Positions 4,983 to 33,682 of a stretch of 46,111 nucleotides of DNA are shown here, piece after piece. The position numbers and the translations under genes are program-made. The notes below the pieces were generated by a model. That model had not been told where the DNA came from, did no database searches, and saw only the letters and a program-made list of their open reading frames with translations. Each line of letters starts with the position of its first letter. Position 1 is the first letter of the stretch. Source of the stretch: Roseburia sp. (lineage in GTDB: Bacteria; Bacillota; Clostridia; Lachnospirales; Lachnospiraceae); assembly GCA_017549185.1 (NCBI GenBank), contig JAFYVJ010000001.1, positions 1 through 46,111 of the forward strand, in the 5' to 3' direction.

Positions 4983-5883
4983 AATCATCCTCCATTAAGT
5001 GTGCCCAACATTTTTCAACCATATGGTGTGGGAAGTAACGTTCTTTTGCAATACGTAATCCTTCGATACCCAGATCTTCTTCGCGATCTAAAAAGCGGAT
5101 GCAAGGATATTTTTCTCTTAAATAACGGGAAAATTCGTAATTGATAATAGCATAGGCACCGTTTACATCTCCCCATGCTTTTTCAAATTGAATATCATAT
5201 GTGATAGGAGAAAGTTGGCTACCCATAGTAATGCCGAGTATCTTATCGTCATTCATTAACACTAGGCCATCCATTTCCAATTCTTGATAATGTTTTAATG
5301 CCTTATTGATAGCGGTACGTTCCATAAGAAAATCGCTTTCTGGATTTTCCTGTTCTTTAGAGGTGTACCAGGAATTGATCATTTCTAATACCTGTTCGCG
5401 ATTATTTTCACTAAGGGGCTGTACTGTGTAGTTCGGATAATCTGTACGGAAGCGATTACAATGATTGCGTTTTTTCTGATATTTTCTGCCTGGAAGGTCC
5501 GCTAAGTCATTGATATCGTAGATATAGTCAAAGCTGTCACGATCACAGTGGAAACGAAACATGCCGGGATAAAGCGTTTCAAGTGTCTGTATGGCATCTG
5601 CATTAAGACTTGTGATACGACAGGAGATGCCGCGTTCCTTTGCATCCGCAATGATGGCATCTAGTATCGGTTTTTTATCACCTGATCCTACAGGATATGG
5701 GTAGACACTTTTGCGGTTAAAATGTGAGAACAGTACCATATGATCGTTTAGTATGGTAGCATTCTGACGTCCCCAGAGATAGAGATTAGAAAAAGAATAT
5801 TCGCATCCTCTTTCGATATCATCTAGCAAATAGTGTTGATACAGTTCTTTTTGTTCTATTTTAATCGGTTTAAAATCTATCAT
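4972..5883 (-). CDS. DUF2156 domain protein (phosphatidylglycerol lysyltransferase C-terminal-like)
   Basis: 303 residues with the tandem GNAT-like fold of DUF2156, the domain that forms the catalytic end of MprF-type aminoacyl-phosphatidylglycerol synthases. Recognisable segments are GCEYSFSNLYLWG near the start, the basic LPGRKYQKKRNHCNRF around residue 130, and YAIINYEFSRYL with RFLDREEDLGIEGLR near the end. There is no membrane domain, so this is the soluble stand-alone form common in Clostridia, with an unproven acyl- or aminoacyl-transfer role. It is first in an operon with the GNAT gene. AAAGGATATATACC precedes the ATG, and the leader is largely a copy of the dispersed GTAACTATT repeat. 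Confidence 0.85.
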   Translation of the reverse strand: MIDFKPIKIEQKELYQHYLLDDIERGCEYSFSNLYLWGRQNATILNDHMVLFSHFNRKSVYPYPVGSGDKKPILDAIIADAKERGISCRITSLNADAIQTLETLYPGMFRFHCDRDSFDYIYDINDLADLPGRKYQKKRNHCNRFRTDYPNYTVQPLSENNREQVLEMINSWYTSKEQENPESDFLMERTAINKALKHYQELEMDGLVLMNDDKILGITMGSQLSPITYDIQFEKAWGDVNGAYAIINYEFSRYLREKYPCIRFLDREEDLGIEGLRIAKERYFPHHMVEKCWAHLMEDDYEY

Positions 5884-6103: not shown

Positions 6104-7024
6104 TTATGAATTAGCCATAGCAGATAATTCTTCTAACATCTTTGGTAATTCGGTATCCATTTCTTCATCAGAGAATTGGCAGGTACCAACTTTTTTATGT
6201 CCGCCGCCATGGTATTTAAGCATTAAACTTCCTACATTTAAAGTTGCACTTCTGTTTAAAATGCTGTAACCAACAGCAGCACTACAACCTTTACCGCCAC
6301 GTCCGCTTACAATCCATGCAGAAATGTTTTGTTTTGGGAACATACTATAGATTAAGAAACGGTTACCGGAGTAGATTGGATCTACACCACGAAGATCAGA
6401 GATGATAAGATTACCATCTGTAATAGTATGGTCGTTTACCATTTTCTTAAATTTAGCAGTCTGTTCAAAATATACTTCTACGCGTTCTTTCACATCTGGA
6501 AGTGCAAGAATTTCGTCAGCTGTCATTGTGCGGCAAGCATCAATTAATTTTTCCATTAACTGATAGTTAGAAATTGTAAACTGGCGCCATCTGCCGAGAC
6601 CGGTACGAGGGTCCATTAAGAAACCGATTAAAATCCAACCTGTTGGGTCTTGTACCTCATCAACGGTTAAGTTACCGGAGTCAACTTTATCAACAGCTTC
6701 CATCATTGCGTCAAATCGAGGGAAACGCTCTTTACCACCATAGTATTCATAGATAATACGAGCACAAGAAGGAGTAATACGGCTTTCTCCTTTGTATTTA
6801 CCTTCAAGCTGTAAACGTTCATGTTCACTAGAGTGGTGATCAAACCAAAGTCCACATCCTTCTACATAAGGAACGTTTGCAAGACAGTCATCTTCAGTAA
6901 TTTCTACAAGACCATCCTGTAAATCCTTTGGATGAGCGAATTTCCAATGGTCAATAATACCTGCTTCTTTTAAAAGGACGCCACAGGCAAGTCCGTCAAA
7001 GTCGGAACGTGTTACTAATCTCAT
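6104..7024 (-). CDS. DHH/DHHA1 family phosphoesterase
   Basis: 306 residues. The N-terminal DHH domain shows SDFDG (D8, D10) and FDHH (D62, H63, H64), the Mn-binding motifs of this family. The C-terminal DHHA1 domain carries HGGGHKKVGTCQF, the substrate-binding glycine loop. Relatives include exopolyphosphatases, NrnA-type oligoribonucleases and cyclic-dinucleotide phosphodiesterases. The order of motifs fits a stand-alone cytosolic enzyme, but which phosphodiester it cuts cannot be decided here. AAAAAGGAGA lies upstream of the ATG. The gene is monocistronic: a hairpin repeat separates it from the upstream lipoprotein gene and a terminator follows it. Confidence 0.85.
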   Translation of the reverse strand: MRLVTRSDFDGLACGVLLKEAGIIDHWKFAHPKDLQDGLVEITEDDCLANVPYVEGCGLWFDHHSSEHERLQLEGKYKGESRITPSCARIIYEYYGGKERFPRFDAMMEAVDKVDSGNLTVDEVQDPTGWILIGFLMDPRTGLGRWRQFTISNYQLMEKLIDACRTMTADEILALPDVKERVEVYFEQTAKFKKMVNDHTITDGNLIISDLRGVDPIYSGNRFLIYSMFPKQNISAWIVSGRGGKGCSAAVGYSILNRSATLNVGSLMLKYHGGGHKKVGTCQFSDEEMDTELPKMLEELSAMANS

Positions 7025-25352: not shown

Positions 25353-25447
25353 TATTAATAGCGTGTGTGATGATTCTTAGATTGCCGTGTGTAGAAAATA
25401 TTAAAAAAGCCAATATGAGTGAAAAGAAAGCTTCAAAGAAGTCGTTT

Positions 25448-25473
25448 TGCAAATGGAGGCTCTGAATAGTTAT
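25448..25473 (+). repeat. Dispersed repeat copy in the addB leader
   Basis: TGCAAATGGAGGCTCTG followed by AATAGTTAT, close to the consensus. It ends 15 bp before the addB ATG and just ahead of its GGAGAG site. Confidence 0.65.
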
Positions 25474-25488
25474 ATATGGAGAGTAAAT

Positions 25489-28400
25489 ATGTCACTTCAG
25501 TTTATTTTTGGGAATTCAGGAAGCGGCAAATCTACATATCTGTATCAACAGGTATTAGAAGAAGCGAGAAAAAATCCTGATAAAAATTATTTAGTATTGG
25601 TTCCAGAACAGTTCACAATGTCTACACAGAGGGAGTTGGTACGTTTACAGAAGGCACATGCTATTATGAATGTGGATGTGCTTAGTTTTCCACGTCTTGC
25701 CTATCGTGTATTTGATGAACTGGGACAGGAAAATTTGATGGTATTAGAGGAAACCGGAAAAAATCTGGTTCTTCGTAAAATTGCTGAGGAAAAGAAAGCG
25801 AATTTAAAGATTCTTGGCAGCAATATGAATAAAATGGGCTATGTGGGAGAAGTAAAGTCACTTATCTCCGAACTTAGCCAATACAATATAACTCCTGACG
25901 TGTTGCAGGAGTTTTTGTCATGTGCAGATATCAGCGAGACACTGCGTATGAAGTTACAGGATGTGCTGACTCTTTATGAGGGATTTCGAAATTTTTTAAA
26001 GGGAAGATTTATTACATCCGAGGAGATATTAACTCTTTTGTGTGAGGTGGCAGGAGATTCTGCAATTATTAAGGACAGTGTGATTGTATTTGATGAGTTT
26101 ACAGGATTTACACCGATTCAGAATAATCTGATAGCGAAACTATTGGTTGTGGCAGAGAAATTGATGGTTTCATTGACCATGGATTATAGAGAGGATTTTT
26201 TTCATAGTAGAGGCGATCATGAATTGTTTGCTATGAGTAAAAAAACAGTAAAGGTCCTACTTGATATGGCAGATAAATTGCATGTGCAGGTGGAAGAACC
26301 GGTTGTGTTAAACAAGGGATGGCGTTATGTACAGACTGGTAGTATAGATGCTAAAGATGTTATGCTTACGGATGCAGGAGCGTTAGAAAACTGGACGAAT
26401 AAGAGTGCGCTGTATTTCATGGAACAGAATTTATTCCGACCATGGAATAAAAAGTGGCAGAATACGACGGATGAAATCCAAATATATCAGCATAGGAATC
26501 CAAAGGAAGAAATCTCTTATGTGGCGAATGAGATTGCAGCATTAGTACGCAGGGAGAAGTACCATTATGCTGATATTGCAGTAGTGACAGGTGATGTGAA
26601 TCTGTATAGCAATTATGTGGCAGAGACTTTTGAACAGTATGGAATACCGTTTTTTGTGGATCAGACGAAAAATATTCTGTATCATCCGCTGATAGAATTT
26701 GTTCGAGCTGCGTTAGAAGTAATTGAAACAGGATTTGCTTATGAAAGTGTATTCCGTTTCCTTCGTTGTGGATTGTGTGGTATTTCTGAAGAACAGATAG
26801 ATATTTTAGAAAATTATGTGTTGGCGAAAGGGATTCGTGGGATAAAGAAATGGAAGAATACATGGACCTTTGTACGGAACGGCGAAGTAGATGAATTGAT
26901 AGAACTAAATCAAATCCGTGGCGAGGTTGTGGCACTGTTGTTGCCATTATATCAGGTATTTTCGGAAGAAAGTGTACAGGTTAAAGCAGTAGCAAAGGTG
27001 TTATATGATTTGCTTTGGAATTTAGATATAGAAGGACAGATGAAGAAAAAAGAGTATCTGTATGAAGAAACAGGCGATTTTGCTAAAGCGAAGGAATATA
27101 GCCAGATCTATCGAATTCTGATGGATTTATTAGATAAGGTAGTAGCTTTATTAGGAGAAGAGAAGATCACTATTAGTGAGTTTGCGGATATTATGGATGC
27201 GGGCTTTGATGCGGCGAAAGTTGCTGTCATTCCGCCTGGAAAAGATAAAGTTACGATTGGAGATATTGAGCGTACTCGTCTGCAACATATAAAGGTATTA
27301 TTTTTCGTAGGTGTAAACGATGGTGTAGTGCCGAAGTCTGAGAATAAAAGTGGTATCATATCTCAGTTCGAGAGGGAACTGTTAAGTGATGCTAATATGG
27401 AACTGGCACCTAGTACCCGTCAGCGGGTGTTTATTCAGAAGTTTTATCTGTATTTAAATATGACAAAGCCTTCAGATAGGCTTTATATCAGTTTTTCAAA
27501 AGTAAATGCAGAAGGGAAGGCATTACGTCCATCTTATCTGGTAGGAACAATTCAGAAATTATTTCCACAGCTTTTGGTAACAGAGGTGTCACAAGTACGT
27601 ACTTCTGAACAGATTTTGACACCGGAAAGCGGAATGGAATTCTTTTTGCAGGGATTGGGCGAGAAGTCAGAAATAGAGTTTTGGAATGCACTAACCCATT
27701 GGTATTTGAAAGATGAGAGATTTAGAGACCAAGTACAGAAACTACTTGATGCAGCTTATGATTCTTATTCAGAAGAACCGATAAGCCATGCGGTCACAAA
27801 GGCATTATATGGTACTACTTTAGAAAACAGTGTAACTCGCTTAGAACGATTTGCATCCTGTGCTTTTGCACACTATTTACAGTATGGATTGGGATTGAAA
27901 GAGCGAGAATTATTACAGTTTGCCAGTGTAGATATGGGTAATATTTATCATGAAATTTTGGAGCATTTTTCTAAACAAGTAGAAGTATCAGAGTATGACT
28001 GGTTTGATATGCCAGAAGAAGTTGTAAACCAGTTTGTGCAGAATGCGATGGAGGAAGTTGTCGCAGGTTATAAGGGAGCGGAGGCTTTTGAGGATGCTAA
28101 AAACCGGTATTTACTTTCACGCATGAAACAAACTTTGTATTGTACGGTCTGGGCATTGATACATCAGGTGAAAAAAGGCCGTTTTATACCAAGTGAATTT
28201 GAGGTGTCATTCTCCGGCTATAGCGATTTTAATGCGATTCGTTTTCACTTGAGCGAAGAAGAAAAAATGAATCTTAGTGGAAGGATTGATCGCGTAGACA
28301 CTTACGAAGAGGATGATAAAGTATATGTGCGAATTATTGATTATAAATCGGGGAATACCAGTTTTTCTTTATTAAATCTGTATCATGGTTTACAGTTGCA

Positions 28401-28938
28401 GTTAGTGGTATATATGAATGCGGCTATGGAACTGGTAGCAAAAAAATATCCGGACAAGCAGATAGAGCCGGCGGGTATTTTTTATTACCATGTAAAACAT
28501 CCGATGATCGATGGTATCGGTAATGAGTCTGACGAAGAGATTCGTAAGGCATTATTAGAACAGTTGAAATTAAATGGTTTAGTGAATGAGAAACCTGAGG
28601 TTTATCGTGGAATGGATACAGAACTGGGAAGTTCTTCATCGGTAATTCCGGTTGGCTTAAAAGCAGATGGAAGCTTAAGGGCAACTTCGAAGGTGGCAAG
28701 TGCAGAGGAATTTTCTGTGATTTCGGAATATGTGAATCGGAAAATAACAGAGACAGGACAGCAAATTTTTGCGGGTGATGTGACGATGTCTCCATACCAG
28801 TTAGAGAAACGGAGTGGATGTGATTATTGTCCATATCACGCAGTATGTGGGTTTGATTCTCGCTTGCCGGGACATAGCTATCGCAAGTTAGAGGCTATTG
28901 ACGACAGCGAGACTGTTATGGAGAAGATGAGAGGCTGA
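25489..28938 (+). CDS. addB: ATP-dependent helicase/nuclease subunit B (AddB)
   Basis: 1149 residues, the normal length for AddB. The ATG at 25489 follows GGAGAG. Walker A FGNSGSGKST (Lys14) opens an inactive-type helicase fold, and the C-terminus is a RecB-family nuclease with IIDYKSGN and an iron-sulfur cluster whose cysteines are in RFASCAFAHYLQYG and CDYCPYHAVCGFD. With AddA it forms the double-strand-break end-resection enzyme that produces 3' tails at Chi-like sites for RecA. addA normally follows directly; here a promoter, a structured RNA and a DUF3800 gene lie between them. Confidence 0.97.
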   Translation: MSLQFIFGNSGSGKSTYLYQQVLEEARKNPDKNYLVLVPEQFTMSTQRELVRLQKAHAIMNVDVLSFPRLAYRVFDELGQENLMVLEETGKNLVLRKIAEEKKANLKILGSNMNKMGYVGEVKSLISELSQYNITPDVLQEFLSCADISETLRMKLQDVLTLYEGFRNFLKGRFITSEEILTLLCEVAGDSAIIKDSVIVFDEFTGFTPIQNNLIAKLLVVAEKLMVSLTMDYREDFFHSRGDHELFAMSKKTVKVLLDMADKLHVQVEEPVVLNKGWRYVQTGSIDAKDVMLTDAGALENWTNKSALYFMEQNLFRPWNKKWQNTTDEIQIYQHRNPKEEISYVANEIAALVRREKYHYADIAVVTGDVNLYSNYVAETFEQYGIPFFVDQTKNILYHPLIEFVRAALEVIETGFAYESVFRFLRCGLCGISEEQIDILENYVLAKGIRGIKKWKNTWTFVRNGEVDELIELNQIRGEVVALLLPLYQVFSEESVQVKAVAKVLYDLLWNLDIEGQMKKKEYLYEETGDFAKAKEYSQIYRILMDLLDKVVALLGEEKITISEFADIMDAGFDAAKVAVIPPGKDKVTIGDIERTRLQHIKVLFFVGVNDGVVPKSENKSGIISQFERELLSDANMELAPSTRQRVFIQKFYLYLNMTKPSDRLYISFSKVNAEGKALRPSYLVGTIQKLFPQLLVTEVSQVRTSEQILTPESGMEFFLQGLGEKSEIEFWNALTHWYLKDERFRDQVQKLLDAAYDSYSEEPISHAVTKALYGTTLENSVTRLERFASCAFAHYLQYGLGLKERELLQFASVDMGNIYHEILEHFSKQVEVSEYDWFDMPEEVVNQFVQNAMEEVVAGYKGAEAFEDAKNRYLLSRMKQTLYCTVWALIHQVKKGRFIPSEFEVSFSGYSDFNAIRFHLSEEEKMNLSGRIDRVDTYEEDDKVYVRIIDYKSGNTSFSLLNLYHGLQLQLVVYMNAAMELVAKKYPDKQIEPAGIFYYHVKHPMIDGIGNESDEEIRKALLEQLKLNGLVNEKPEVYRGMDTELGSSSSVIPVGLKADGSLRATSKVASAEEFSVISEYVNRKITETGQQIFAGDVTMSPYQLEKRSGCDYCPYHAVCGFDSRLPGHSYRKLEAIDDSETVMEKMRG

Positions 28939-28956
28939 ATGTTTTATTAAAAATAG

Positions 28957-28985
28957 TTGATATTTTGTAAAATACCGCATATAAT
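28957..28985 (+). promoter_or_regulatory. Near-consensus promoter of the RNA/DUF3800 module
   Basis: TTGATA (28957-28962), a 17-bp spacer and TATAAT (28980-28985), starting 19 bp after the addB stop. A transcript from here would begin at about 28992, exactly at the first RNA hairpin. Confidence 0.8.
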
Positions 28986-28991
28986 ATTTAT

Positions 28992-29085
28992 ACAGATATG
29001 AATCTGTTGCACGAAGTGCATTAATATTTGGGCTGACCGAGAGGTCCTGGTCCACCGGCTGGCGGGGATTTACCCCGCCATTTTT
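28992..29085 (+). ncRNA. Structured RNA with five consecutive hairpins upstream of the DUF3800 gene
   Basis: Hairpins in order: ACAGAT-ATGA-ATCTGT (28992-29007); TGCAC-GAA-GTGCA (29008-29020); GACC-GAGA-GGTC (29035-29046); CTGG-TCCA-CCGG (29047-29058); TGGCGGGG-ATTTA-CCCCGCCA (29060-29080) followed by TTTTT. All stems are perfect apart from one G-U pair. The block is GC-rich against an A/T-rich background. The last hairpin is a textbook terminator, so most transcripts should end as a ~94-nt RNA before the gene. Several DUF3800-associated RNA motifs are known; I cannot say whether this matches one of them. Confidence 0.75.
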
Positions 29086-29106
29086 ATACATTGAAGGGGC
29101 GGTTGA

Positions 29107-29784
29107 ATGAAGGAAAAAGTACTTAGTGTTTTTATAGATGAATCTGGAGATTTTGGACAATTTAATCCAGCTTCTCCTAATTACTATGTTGCAATGGTTT
29201 TACATAATCAGAAAATAAATATTTCAAAAAACATTGATGCTTTGGATAGACAGATAAGTAATTGGGGATACCCGGAACATACCATACATACAGGGCCATT
29301 GATTAGGCGTGAGAGTGTTTATAAAAACGATTTGCGTGAAAATAGAAAAGCATTATTTAATGCATTGTATCATTTCACTCGTATGTTGGATGTTCAATAT
29401 CTCTGTCCGGTTATTAATCAAGGAGAGTGTGTAGAAAAATCAAAATTGGCATATACAGATAAGCTGACAAAAGAGATTGCAAATAAGTTGCGAACAAATT
29501 ATGAATATTTTTCAGTGTTTGATAAGATTATTGTTTATTATGATTATGGACAGATTGAATTGGCACAGATATTAGTGTCAGTTTTTAATGCGATGTTTTC
29601 TAATGTGGAATTTAGGAAAATTGAAACGAATCAGTACAAATTATCGCAAGCGGCAGATTTAATCTGCACAGTAGAGGCAATTGCACAGAAGGAAGTACTA
29701 ACAAAATCAGAGATGGAATTCTTCCACTCAAAGAGTGAGTTTAAGAAAAATATTTATAAGAATATTGTCAAGAAAAAATTGTGA
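29107..29784 (+). CDS. DUF3800 domain protein
   Basis: 225 residues, cytosolic. Family marks are present: FIDESGDFG at the N-terminus (Asp11, Glu12, Asp15), VYYDYGQIELAQ (Asp146) in the middle, and SQAADLICTVE (Asp184, Glu190) near the end. The spaced acidic residues suggest a metal-dependent nuclease-like fold, but the activity of this family is not established to my knowledge. GAAGGGG precedes the ATG. It lies 21 bp after the terminator-like hairpin of the RNA and has no clear terminator of its own. It splits the addB-addA pair, so addA may be read through from this promoter too. A gained accessory module is more likely than a repair subunit. Confidence 0.88.
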   Translation: MKEKVLSVFIDESGDFGQFNPASPNYYVAMVLHNQKINISKNIDALDRQISNWGYPEHTIHTGPLIRRESVYKNDLRENRKALFNALYHFTRMLDVQYLCPVINQGECVEKSKLAYTDKLTKEIANKLRTNYEYFSVFDKIIVYYDYGQIELAQILVSVFNAMFSNVEFRKIETNQYKLSQAADLICTVEAIAQKEVLTKSEMEFFHSKSEFKKNIYKNIVKKKL

Positions 29785-30055
29785 AAATATAGAGATTTTG
29801 TATTGATAATATTCAAATTGGAAAGAGCTCCTGCTATCCTTCAACGAATATTATGGACGAAACGTATTTAGTTTAAGAATAGTTTTTTGGAGTTCTTTGC
29901 GGAAGATGCCTTTGTACAGAGAAAGAAGTTTATTATTGAGTTTTACCGTGAGGGTGTAGAAAAGGTGAATAGAAGCAGTTAAAGAAGAAATATGTGTTTA
30001 ACACACATGAAAAATTCAGTTTTCGTTATATGACCAGAAAGGAGATAAGTCGAAG
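29785..30055 (+). other. Gap between DUF3800 gene and addA: decayed sequence
   Basis: No complete gene. A stop-free stretch of 34 codons (29871-29972, then TAA) encodes FFAEDAFVQRKKFIIEFYRE within it and looks like the tail of a lost gene. Inverted repeats are ATAATATTC/GAATATTAT (29806-29854) and ATGTGT/ACACAT (29992-30008). The addA ribosome site AAAGGAG lies at the end. Confidence 0.4.
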
Positions 30056-33000
30056 ATGGGAATGCAGTGGACAGATGACCAGCAGAAGGTTATTAACTTA
30101 CGAAATCGTAATATTTTGGTATCGGCAGCGGCCGGTTCCGGTAAAACTGCGGTTTTGGTAGAACGAATTATTAAAATGATAACCGATAAAGAACATCCTG
30201 TGGATATCGACCGTCTTTTGATTGTAACCTTTACAAATGCCGCAGCAGCTGAAATGCGGGAGCGAATCGGTGCGGCCATAGAGAAGGCATTGGAAGAGAA
30301 TGAGGAAGACGAGCATTTGCAACGTCAGTTGACGCTGATTCATAATGCTCAGATTACTACCATTGACAGTTTTTGTCTTTATGTAGTGAGGAATCATTTT
30401 TATGAGATAGATATAGAACCTAATTTTCGAATTGGAGACGAGGGTGAGTTGAAGTTATTGCGAGAAGATGTGATAAAAGCGGTACTGTCATCTCACTACG
30501 AGGAACCTGATGAAGCATTTTCTGATTTTATGGAAGGTTATGCTACCGGTAAAAGTGATGATGCGGTTGTACAGATGATTCTGGGATTATATCATTTTTC
30601 CAGAAGTTATCCATGGCCGAAGCAGTGGCTTAGAGATTGTAAGAGAAGTTATGAGATATCCACGGTAGAAGAACTAAACGATGCAGCATGGATGCAGTCG
30701 ACTGTAAAAAATATTTGCCGTTTATTAGGTGATATTTACCAATCAACTGAATTGGCATTAGAGCTTGCCCAGGATGCAGATGGACCGAATATGTATGGTA
30801 CGGCATTAGAAAGCGACCTGGAATTATATGAGAGTCTGGTGGATAAAAAAAGCTTTTCAGAATTATACACAGGGTTGAAAAATATCAGTTATGCGAAATT
30901 AGCCAGCAGTAGAGGATACACAGGAAGCATAGAGAAGTTAGAACGTGTAAAAGCAATCCGCGATGAAGCAAAGGCAGTCGTGAAGAAACTAGTGAGCCAG
31001 TATTGCTTTATGTCTCCGGAATTAATGGTAGAACAGTTACAAAAAACAGCACCAATGGTGGAGGTATTAGTAGCACTGACAGAAGAATTTGCTGAGGCTT
31101 ATGCGAATGCTAAGAAGAAAAAGAATTTAGTGGATTTCCATGATGTGGAGCATTTTGCGTTGGAAATTCTGGTAGATGAGACGACAGGAAAAGCAAAGAA
31201 GACTGCAGAAGAATTCCAAAATACTTTTGTGGAAATCATGATAGATGAGTATCAGGACAGTAACAATGTGCAGGAAGAGATTTTGACTTCTATTTCCCGG
31301 ATGAAACAGGGAGAGAACAATATTTTTATGGTAGGGGATGTAAAGCAGAGCATTTATCGTTTTCGTCTGGCGAGACCGGAACTTTTTATGGAAAAATATG
31401 ATGGTTATCAGACGGAAGATAGTAAGACTCAGAAGATTGACCTACACCAGAACTTTAGAAGCCGAAATGAGGTGCTAGAGGCGTCTAATGATATTTTTTA
31501 CCGTATCATGGGAAAAGACCTTGGAAATGTCGTATATGATGATTTGGCAGCATTGTATCCGGGAGCATCGTATCCAAAAGTGGAGAATGCAAAGGCAGAA
31601 TTATTTCTATTAGATAGTAATGATGAATTGTTAGAGGATACGGAGTATTCGGATAAAAAGATAGTAGAGGCAAAGCTTGTAGCGAATCGTATCAAAAAAC
31701 TATTAAAGGAATATCAGGTAACAGATAAAAAAACGGGCGAACTTAGGGCTGCCCGCTATTCGGATATCGTAATTCTACTCAGAAGTTTAAGTGGGTGGGC
31801 AGAGAGTTTTGCGGAAGTATTAAATGACGAAGGGATACCGGCTCATGCAGTATCACAGACCGGCTATTTTGGGACAGTAGAAGTGCAGACAGTACTTTCT
31901 ATGTTGCGTATTTTGGATAATCCAAGACAGGATATTCCACTGGCAGGAGTTTTGCACTCGCCAATTGGCGGTATGTCTGATGAAGAATTAGCAATATTAC
32001 GACTATATAAAAAAGATGTTGCATTCCATGAGAGTGTATTAGCGTTGTGCAGAGATTTACAGTCAAAGACTCCGACGAATACGGCGGAGGAAAAGCTTTT
32101 GGCGTTTTATCAGAAGTATGTTAGTCTTAGAGAAAAAGTAATAGATACACCAATTCATGAACTTGTAGAATTGGTTTTAAAAGAAACCGGATATGGCAAT
32201 TATGTTGCAGCTATGCCAGCAGGTACCAGACGTAGAGCTAACATAGACATGCTTTTAGAAAAGGCCATCACATATGAAAAGACCAGCTATAAAGGATTGT
32301 TCCATTTTGTCAGATATATTGATGAACTACAGAAGTATGATGTGGACTTTGGTGAGGCGGATTTAATTGGCGAGAATGAAGATGTGGTCCGTATTATGAG
32401 TATTCATAAGAGTAAAGGTTTGGAATTCCCTATTGTTTTTGTATCGGGGATGGGAAAAAATTTTAATAAACAGGATACTAGAAATAGAATGGTGCTTCAT
32501 CCGGAATATGGTCTTGGATTAGATGCAATGGATGGAAGACGTCGTATTAAGGCACCGACGATTGCAAAAACAGCGATTGCCAAACAGATTGAATTGGAGA
32601 ATTTAGGAGAAGAGCTTCGAGTACTTTATGTTGCACTTACCAGAGCGAAAGAAAAACTGATTTTAACAGGTAGTAGAAAGGATATTGCAGCAAAAGTAGA
32701 GATTTGTGCACAGGAAGTTAGTGGATATGAGTACAAGAATGGGGACCTGTTGCCGTATTTGAAGAGAGAAGGTGCGGCTTCGTATTTGGATTGGGTGCTT
32801 CCGGCACTGCTTTCTTATGGGGAAAAATATCCGATTACCCTTGTGACAGCAGAGGAGCTTGTAACAGAAGAAGTAGAAAAACAGGTTCTTACAGCTTGTG
32901 AGAAGACCAAACGGATGATAGAAATAGAGCATGCATCGGAAGAATTGTTAGAATGTTTAGAAACACGTTTTTCCAATGGATATCCATACGAGATAGATGA

Positions 33001-33682
33001 AACGAAGAAAAATAAATATTCAGTATCAGAATTAAAACACCGTGCTATGAGAGAGGCTTTTGAGGCAGAAGATGCAGATAGTATGCCGATGTTCGCGGAG
33101 GAGGTAATTGTTCCGTATGTGCCGAAGTTTGTGCGGGAACTGGAAGAATATAGTTATTCGGAAGAAGAACCATGTGAAACGGGTAGGGATGTGAATCGTG
33201 GTGCCTTACGTGGTACGGCAGTTCATCGAGTCATGGAGTGTTATGATTTTACTAGTGTAAGCAATCCAAAGGAACAGTTACAAAAAATGCTTGAGGATGG
33301 TCGAATTACGAAAGAACTGGGAGATTTGGTACAGATGTCAAAGGTACAGACATTTATAGATTCAGAAACAGGACTTCGTATGAAAAAGGCAGCATTGTCA
33401 GGAAAACTTTATCGGGAAAAACCATTTGTTATGAGTTTTTCAGAGGAAGATATGACATTGATTCAAGGAATCATAGATGTATTTTGGATGGAAGAAGATG
33501 GAATTGTACTTTTAGATTACAAGACAGATTCTGTTGCGGAACCGAAGGAACTGGTTTTACGCTATGAGGAACAGTTGAATTTGTATGCTGAGGCATTAAA
33601 TCGAGTGTTCGTAGATAGTGGATTAAAAGTGAAAGAAAAATTAATCTATGCTTTTAAATTCGGTGAAGTAATTGCTGTATAA
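30056..33682 (+). CDS. addA: ATP-dependent helicase/nuclease subunit A (AddA)
   Basis: 1208 residues, normal length. It is a UvrD/Rep-type helicase (superfamily 1): Q-motif WTDDQQKVI, Walker A SAAAGSGKT (Lys30), TFTNAAAAEMRERI (motif Ia), MIDEYQDSN (Walker B), VGDVKQSIYRFR (motif III), RIMSIHKSKGLEFPIVF (motif V) and LYVALTRAKEKL (motif VI). The C-terminal nuclease shows RGTAVHRVME and VLLDYKTDSV. AddA supplies 3'-5' unwinding and one of the two nucleases of AddAB. A second ATG two codons on (30062) could also be used; AAAGGAG lies 11 bp before the first. Confidence 0.97.
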   Translation: MGMQWTDDQQKVINLRNRNILVSAAAGSGKTAVLVERIIKMITDKEHPVDIDRLLIVTFTNAAAAEMRERIGAAIEKALEENEEDEHLQRQLTLIHNAQITTIDSFCLYVVRNHFYEIDIEPNFRIGDEGELKLLREDVIKAVLSSHYEEPDEAFSDFMEGYATGKSDDAVVQMILGLYHFSRSYPWPKQWLRDCKRSYEISTVEELNDAAWMQSTVKNICRLLGDIYQSTELALELAQDADGPNMYGTALESDLELYESLVDKKSFSELYTGLKNISYAKLASSRGYTGSIEKLERVKAIRDEAKAVVKKLVSQYCFMSPELMVEQLQKTAPMVEVLVALTEEFAEAYANAKKKKNLVDFHDVEHFALEILVDETTGKAKKTAEEFQNTFVEIMIDEYQDSNNVQEEILTSISRMKQGENNIFMVGDVKQSIYRFRLARPELFMEKYDGYQTEDSKTQKIDLHQNFRSRNEVLEASNDIFYRIMGKDLGNVVYDDLAALYPGASYPKVENAKAELFLLDSNDELLEDTEYSDKKIVEAKLVANRIKKLLKEYQVTDKKTGELRAARYSDIVILLRSLSGWAESFAEVLNDEGIPAHAVSQTGYFGTVEVQTVLSMLRILDNPRQDIPLAGVLHSPIGGMSDEELAILRLYKKDVAFHESVLALCRDLQSKTPTNTAEEKLLAFYQKYVSLREKVIDTPIHELVELVLKETGYGNYVAAMPAGTRRRANIDMLLEKAITYEKTSYKGLFHFVRYIDELQKYDVDFGEADLIGENEDVVRIMSIHKSKGLEFPIVFVSGMGKNFNKQDTRNRMVLHPEYGLGLDAMDGRRRIKAPTIAKTAIAKQIELENLGEELRVLYVALTRAKEKLILTGSRKDIAAKVEICAQEVSGYEYKNGDLLPYLKREGAASYLDWVLPALLSYGEKYPITLVTAEELVTEEVEKQVLTACEKTKRMIEIEHASEELLECLETRFSNGYPYEIDETKKNKYSVSELKHRAMREAFEAEDADSMPMFAEEVIVPYVPKFVRELEEYSYSEEEPCETGRDVNRGALRGTAVHRVMECYDFTSVSNPKEQLQKMLEDGRITKELGDLVQMSKVQTFIDSETGLRMKKAALSGKLYREKPFVMSFSEEDMTLIQGIIDVFWMEEDGIVLLDYKTDSVAEPKELVLRYEEQLNLYAEALNRVFVDSGLKVKEKLIYAFKFGEVIAV

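Follow-up and report, generated by a model that had tools for sequence, protein, structure and literature searches.

A mobile DUF3800-XI RNA and DUF3800 gene unit between addB and addA of a Roseburia sp., and its possible role as an RNA-restrained nuclease

A structured RNA of the Rfam family DUF3800-XI and a gene for a DUF3800 protein together form a unit that occupies the 1117 bp between addB and addA in the window, by which we mean the whole stretch of 46,111 nucleotides analysed here (Roseburia sp., assembly GCA_017549185.1, contig JAFYVJ010000001.1). Comparison with the corresponding loci of relatives confirms that the unit was inserted between the two genes, and comparison of related units shows that it is horizontally mobile. 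We favour the reading that the DUF3800 protein is a nuclease held in check by its RNA, working like a type III toxin-antitoxin or abortive infection system and spreading as cargo, because of the layout of the unit, an element end shared with ToxN, the placement of related units in phages and the published RNase H fold of DUF3800. We give this reading close to an even chance.

Locus between addB and addA

The unit and its surroundings consist of the following features.

25447-28938: addB, with domains ADDB_N and PDDEXK_1
28931-28956, plus strand: putative left junction, with the addB stop codon (28936-28938) inside GAGGCTGAA
28957-28985, plus strand: promoter TTGATA-17-TATAAT, 11 of 12 consensus matches
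28992-29020, plus strand: two 5' hairpins, P0a (28992-29007) and P0b (29008-29020), outside the Rfam model
29029-29076, plus strand: DUF3800-XI RNA core, matching RF02975 and showing covariation
29029-29034/29049-29054 and 29035-29038/29043-29046, plus strand: within the core, stems P1 and P2, respectively, P2 with a GNRA loop
Closing part of the core 29029-29076, plus strand: CCACC linker and start of P3
29060-29085, plus strand: P3 intrinsic terminator (hairpin 29060-29080) with U tract, separating the RNA from the DUF3800 gene
29107-29784, plus strand: DUF3800 protein gene (PF12686), 225 aa
29785-30055, plus strand: spacer of 271 bp between the DUF3800 gene and addA, with a decayed gene fragment at 29872-29974
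30056-33682: addA, with domains UvrD and PDDEXK_1

The preliminary description of this DNA had estimated the distance between addB and addA at 1.1 kb, in agreement with the measured length, and had named a promoter with good -35 and -10 boxes, which is borne out by the near-consensus match above. The boxes are alike, by eye, at the same position in close relatives. Promoter-like sites as such are not above chance in 28900-30060, where 6 stand against 5.3 expected; all five besides this promoter reach 9/12. The RNA had been described as five hairpins ending in a terminator; the terminator stands, and the count is corrected to four stem-loops, as P1 and P2 make up one bulged hairpin. Since P3 also separates addB from addA, and a strong terminator has thereby been inserted between them, addA would need read-through or another promoter. 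On the plus strand past the start of the DUF3800 gene, promoter-like sites reach scores of 9/12 only, no better than chance. This effect on the addBA operon is a consequence of the insertion and not evidence of its purpose.

AddB was searched in 60 genomes including that of the window; 56 matched, and the best 30 were followed to their loci, 29 of which belong to relatives. In 28 of these 29 loci the gap between addB and addA is at most 91 bp, which upholds the statement that the two genes are normally neighbours. The remaining locus, L126, from another family of the same order, has a gap of 718 bp; inspection by eye revealed no such module there. Same-genus genomes, with AddB identities of up to 73% (many far lower), have no unit between addB and addA. 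The picture is thus not one of relatives that mostly carry the gene at this place without a conserved RNA: the gene is missing from this site in the relatives, and among the 49 open relatives whose upstream sequence spans at least 120 bp, 47 have the RNA in front of the gene, the two exceptions (L095 and L096) being distant Bacilli at 33-35% identity.

These comparisons bear on the earlier suggestion that the unit senses or influences double-strand-break processing. A functional accessory of AddAB with such a sensing or tuning role would suit the position of the unit and the terminator between addB and addA, but the module stands between these genes in 0 of the 29 relatives' loci examined, and related modules are found at many other sites. 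The suggestion is therefore not upheld, and we consider it highly improbable.

The sequence GAGGCTGAA at the addB stop codon is identical to the inner border of ext5, the conserved left end of some related mobile units, and is a putative insertion junction. A stretch of 39 nt at 28928-28966, promoter region included, is 87% identical to L063 (E 3e-7) and 82% identical to L033. The outer part of ext5 and the right end, ext3, are both absent from the window copy. The spacer of 271 bp between DUF3800 and addA has no match in 59 same-genus genomes. Its decayed fragment of about 103 bases (29872-29974) shares 78% identity with a portion of a gene located on another contig, C60, of this genome (L268).

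The RNA

The core at 29029-29076 matches RF02975 over its full length (1-48) with 58.3 bits (cut-off 37.8; E = 1.8e-10), and is the only RF02975 match in the window's genome assembly, which is approximately 70% complete. The PF12686 gene lies on the same strand and begins 30 nt past the core match. The covariance-model search thus substantiates the earlier statement that structured RNA motif families occur beside DUF3800 genes, and makes the window RNA a clear member of DUF3800-XI, a known Rfam family with no assigned function. To our knowledge, the DUF3800 RNA motifs have been catalogued without a function. Within a limited collection of literature mentioning DUF3800, no study of these RNAs was found by title.

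The predicted RNA at 28991-29086 (96 nt) folds with -39.3 kcal/mol (z = -3.88; nested folds only), and 1 of 200 shuffled sequences folded equally well. Across 41 loci, the 45 nt 5' of the core have a mean of -7.0 kcal/mol versus -3.9 kcal/mol in shuffles that control for composition only. The stems covary, with 358 of 380 cells paired versus a mean of 307.5 and a maximum of 323 in 1000 shuffles (38 distinct stem sets); this count takes the best-pairing register and so leans towards structure, and L239, L243, L245, L249 and the loci with a 5-bp P2 were left out of it. Wobble pairs are fixed by position (G-U at P1.4 in 21/38 stem sets, U-G at P1.6 in 37/38), a GNRA tetraloop is present in 91 of 112 loops, and the outermost pair, P1.1, is formed in just 22 of the 38 stem sets. 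Distances between RNAs and between proteins correlate (r 0.73 in 41 loci, with 0 of 2000 permutations as high), as expected of co-inherited parts. The window holds a single core; the direct repeats in 28880-30070 do not repeat it.

The family's RNA also occurs apart from an intact gene. RF02975 was placed 82 times in the window's family, and 79 places were judged after leaving out two spurious matches (L248 and L249) and one at a contig end (L023). An intact DUF3800 gene accompanies the RNA in 31 of these, a broken one in 15 (L011 and L029 assigned by eye), and none was detected in 33, so that 48 of the 79 places have the RNA without an intact gene. Several of the 33 gene-less places retain, by eye, just the first codons of DUF3800. 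The gene-less copies keep P1 (at least 5 pairs) in 31/33 and P2 (4/4) in 26/33, in a set ascertained by the RNA model itself. They fit a course of events in which a toxin was lost and its antitoxin kept, and also fit simple decay. Persistence of the RNA was considered as proof of an antitoxin and is weakened as such: the ORF offers decay an approximately 14-fold larger target than the RNA does, and it was the RNA model that detected the loci, so an independent function of the RNA is not proven by it. Some gene-less copies may now serve as terminators. At L226, the RNA, a ribosome site and the first DUF3800 codons run into an acyltransferase-like gene (by eye).

The main rival to an RNA that restrains the protein is a purely cis-acting leader, an attenuator or riboswitch-like element in which a signal permits read-through into DUF3800 and the RNA has no role in trans. 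A strong terminator directly before the DUF3800 gene and the correlated distances of RNA and gene both agree with it, and the AbiF RNA partly acts in this manner according to PMC12373285. Neither the minimum-energy nor the centroid fold, however, contains a pairing that competes with the P3 hairpin, and the gene-less copies keep their stems at the frequencies given above, within the ascertainment stated there. We regard a leader without a trans role as unlikely.

The DUF3800 protein

The window protein matches PF12686 (DUF3800) with 28.6 bits (cut-off 21). All 45 aligned proteins match PF12686 at E 0.001 or better and no other family. Twenty-one residues are invariant across them, including the six acidic residues D11, E12, D15, D146, D184 and E202, in line with the intact acidic motifs attributed to the gene beforehand. 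Neither the window protein nor the 45 aligned proteins match PF13958 (ToxN), and PADLOC gave no match for the window unit. Relatives of solved structure were not found with the single sequence, and a profile search returned one insignificant match (E 0.17). An RNase H fold is predicted for the window protein on the strength of a published statement for DUF3800, based on an AlphaFold model, in PMC10910872.

According to PMC10910872 and PMC12669027, some Cas12a2 and type VI-F loci have DUF3800 proteins beside them. This association, and an RNase H fold next to a conserved RNA (PMC10910872), would suit an RNA that serves as guide or scaffold of an RNA-guided or RNA-dependent nuclease directed against foreign nucleic acid. 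The predicted transcript, however, is closed by its own terminator and has no 3' part left free to serve as a guide, hairpins tend to form in the variable part, P0, and the 45 aligned proteins match PF12686 alone. A guide or scaffold function appears improbable to us.

Horizontal spread

A pattern-based module search, which reaches close relatives only and in which 84,980 species were each represented by a single genome, yielded 69 related protein loci. Among 20 genomes with modules that are 73-90% identical, AddB is just 27-46% identical to that of the window in 19, and the remaining genome has no AddB match. The flanks are mostly unlike between loci, and the modules occupy many different sites. 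These comparisons show the horizontal mobility of the RNA-DUF3800 unit. Exceptions to the unlike flanks are L038, L060, L092 and L099, which have a common left flank of approximately 1 kb, 85-97% identical, with a membrane-protein-like gene. As two different module subtypes stand behind this flank, modules of different types may be exchanged for one another at a single place.

RF02975 matches were found in 60 of 397 genomes of the window's family, 56 of them above the cut-off, and in 3 of 398 genomes across the phylum, namely the window genome, a further genome of its family and one with a match below the cut-off. By these matches, the RNA is found mainly within the family to which the window belongs. 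Control genomes gave a single Rfam match, in Thermus composti, below the cut-off, and the plasmid search gave one match at 30% identity.

Two loci show further rearrangements. A 33-nt direct repeat (97% identical; 5781-5813 and 6823-6855) flanks the whole module in L043, suggesting another kind of insertion event. In L048/L131, a group II intron match (RF00029, 44.7 bits, 59-140) lies just upstream of the DUF3800 gene, perhaps inserted behind the terminator of the RNA; the contig start is close by.

Sixteen relatives were found on viral contigs, with RF02975 in 11 of the 15 scanned, and two are placed like phage accessory genes, termed morons: tape-measure and major-tail genes flank the module of L256, and that of L258 has a sigma-factor-like regulator on one side and a terminase small-subunit side on the other, each module being antisense to both neighbours. 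A search of phage records gave one match, covering 32%.

Integrative-element ends and ToxN

Among the 69 protein loci, the left end ext5 is present in 10, the right end ext3 in 15 and both in 8; these 8 include L034, L038, L060, L063 and L092, whereas L033 and L090 match in part only and L099 is interrupted. In the aligned copies, ext3 stops at a common point. It occurs at 21 places in the 397 family genomes, and directly upstream of it lie an integrase (12 places), DUF3800 (3), ToxN (1; L188), other small ORFs (1) or a contig edge (4). The 12 tyrosine integrases were called by similarity to that of L136 (Pfam Phage_integrase), with L179 showing the last residues only; at L180, just 17 nt of the integrase-type junction are seen. 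Because an integrase stands directly upstream in 12 of the 21 places, ext3 is the integrase-side end of an integrative element. Two of the three DUF3800 genes next to ext3 are broken, and one of the three loci, L185, is the record of L038. At L187, two small ORFs upstream of the right end represent further cargo at the same end. Three consecutive tyrosine-recombinase-like ORFs (by eye) lie between a truncated DUF3800 and the right end in L099 (6501-9775).

The same right end is found behind a ToxN gene in L142 (PF13958, 139 bits). An internally deleted ToxN in L160/L174 lies between both ends and is the sole ToxN copy seen with both. By eye only, the ToxN copies have a promoter, an RNA-like stretch and a terminator; the RNA beside ToxN has no Rfam match, and in L142 the sequence in front of ToxN yielded no tandem repeat. 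On the minus strand of L063, an ORF at 1722-2276 that by eye resembles the ToxN of L142 lies approximately 3.7 kb from the DUF3800 module. The left end ext5 is also found upstream of a DUF7660 gene (L169), and holds a palindrome that recurs near other mobile-element genes, which makes ext5 less certain as a true left end. The common slot shows that DUF3800 and ToxN behave similarly as cargo, not that their biochemistry is equal.

The modules might instead move by themselves, with DUF3800 as a transposase-like recombinase and the structured RNA as a terminal DNA hairpin. The many sites are compatible with this, RNA-only copies resemble internally deleted elements, and in L058 one RNA copy stands before the DUF3800 gene and one directly behind it (5914 and 6679). 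L058 is, however, the only one of 33 protein loci with the core to have two copies in a motif scan; the conserved wobble pairs (P1.4, P1.6) and the U-tract terminator point to RNA; ToxN and integrase also occur with the ends that accompany DUF3800; and no flanking direct repeats of at least 12 nt were found around the module in the window, a length that leaves room for shorter target duplications. We consider a self-moving unit quite improbable.

Proposed function

The sequences themselves establish the layout of the unit, its family, the conservation of RNA structure, horizontal transfer and an element end in common with ToxN. From the above we infer the behaviour of the transcript, nuclease activity, RNA-protein binding, toxicity, the phage trigger and the route of entry at this site, as follows. 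The single promoter would give rise to a structured RNA of approximately 95 nt that mostly stops at the P3 terminator, and rare read-through would yield the DUF3800 protein, a predicted nuclease of the RNase H fold. The excess RNA would most likely bind the protein and keep it inactive, with the terminator holding the ratio of protein to RNA low. If a phage took over the cell or the module were lost, the nuclease would be released and would halt or kill the cell. The unit would spread as cargo, at integrative-element ends, as an extra phage gene, or by recombination into intergenic sites of the host such as that between addB and addA.

Some observations count against a reading of this toxin-antitoxin-like kind, namely the single RNA unit, a protein that is not ToxN-like, the P1.1 pair formed in little more than half of the stem sets, and both ends present in a minority of the loci (8/69). 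The earlier proposal of a compact RNA/protein system in the addBA operon is confirmed as to the unit; its role as regulator, toxin-antitoxin or defence system is plausible, and gains further weight from the parallel with ToxN and the occurrence in phages.

Comparison with known systems

Type III toxin-antitoxin systems have a single promoter, a structured RNA, a Rho-independent terminator and a downstream gene, and criteria for them include ToxN and a tandem-repeat antitoxin RNA, as given in PMC5086642. The layout of the window unit, read from sequence alone, is equal to that of the type III systems ToxIN, CptIN and AbiQ, and type III ToxN and DUF3800-XI are found at the same mobile-element end. 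Whereas those systems combine a ToxN protein with a tandem-repeat RNA, the window has a DUF3800 protein and a single RNA unit. Because it has neither ToxN nor tandem repeats, the window unit is not a type III member by the criteria in PMC5086642.

In the phage-encoded AbiF system of Clostridioides difficile (RCd22 RNA and AbiF), a terminated ncRNA of approximately 100 nt with an Rfam motif precedes a toxic protein, and the RNA was shown to lower expression and to neutralise the toxin, according to PMC12373285. The protein and RNA families are different ones, and AbiF was tested by experiment, whereas our unit is known from its sequence.

The window unit agrees with the description of RF02975 and PF12686: the RNA core corresponds, it precedes the gene, and the gene belongs to the family described. 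The 5' hairpins, the mobility, the element end shared with ToxN and the phage placement go beyond that description.

Integrase-less derivatives of integrative elements are termed CIMEs. The related modules resemble CIME-like units, in that cargo beside or between such ends is also found on an integrase-bearing element; both ends occur together in just 8 of 69 loci, the window copy not among them. One narrow literature search for comparable cargo elements returned nothing, which does not imply their absence from the literature.

DUF3800-XI, and perhaps other DUF3800 RNA motifs, could constitute a new class of RNA-restrained toxin or abortive infection systems, in which a nuclease of the RNase H fold would be restrained by an RNA made up of P0, P1/P2 and the terminator, and which would circulate at integrative-element ends as cargo interchangeable with ToxN systems and in phages as morons; we hold this to be a real possibility, short of an even chance. 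The ToxN-like slot and layout and the occurrence as extra phage genes suggest a testable job for DUF3800, namely whether the protein is toxic in the absence of its RNA. Were this the case, RNA-controlled bacterial defence would gain a new nuclease family.
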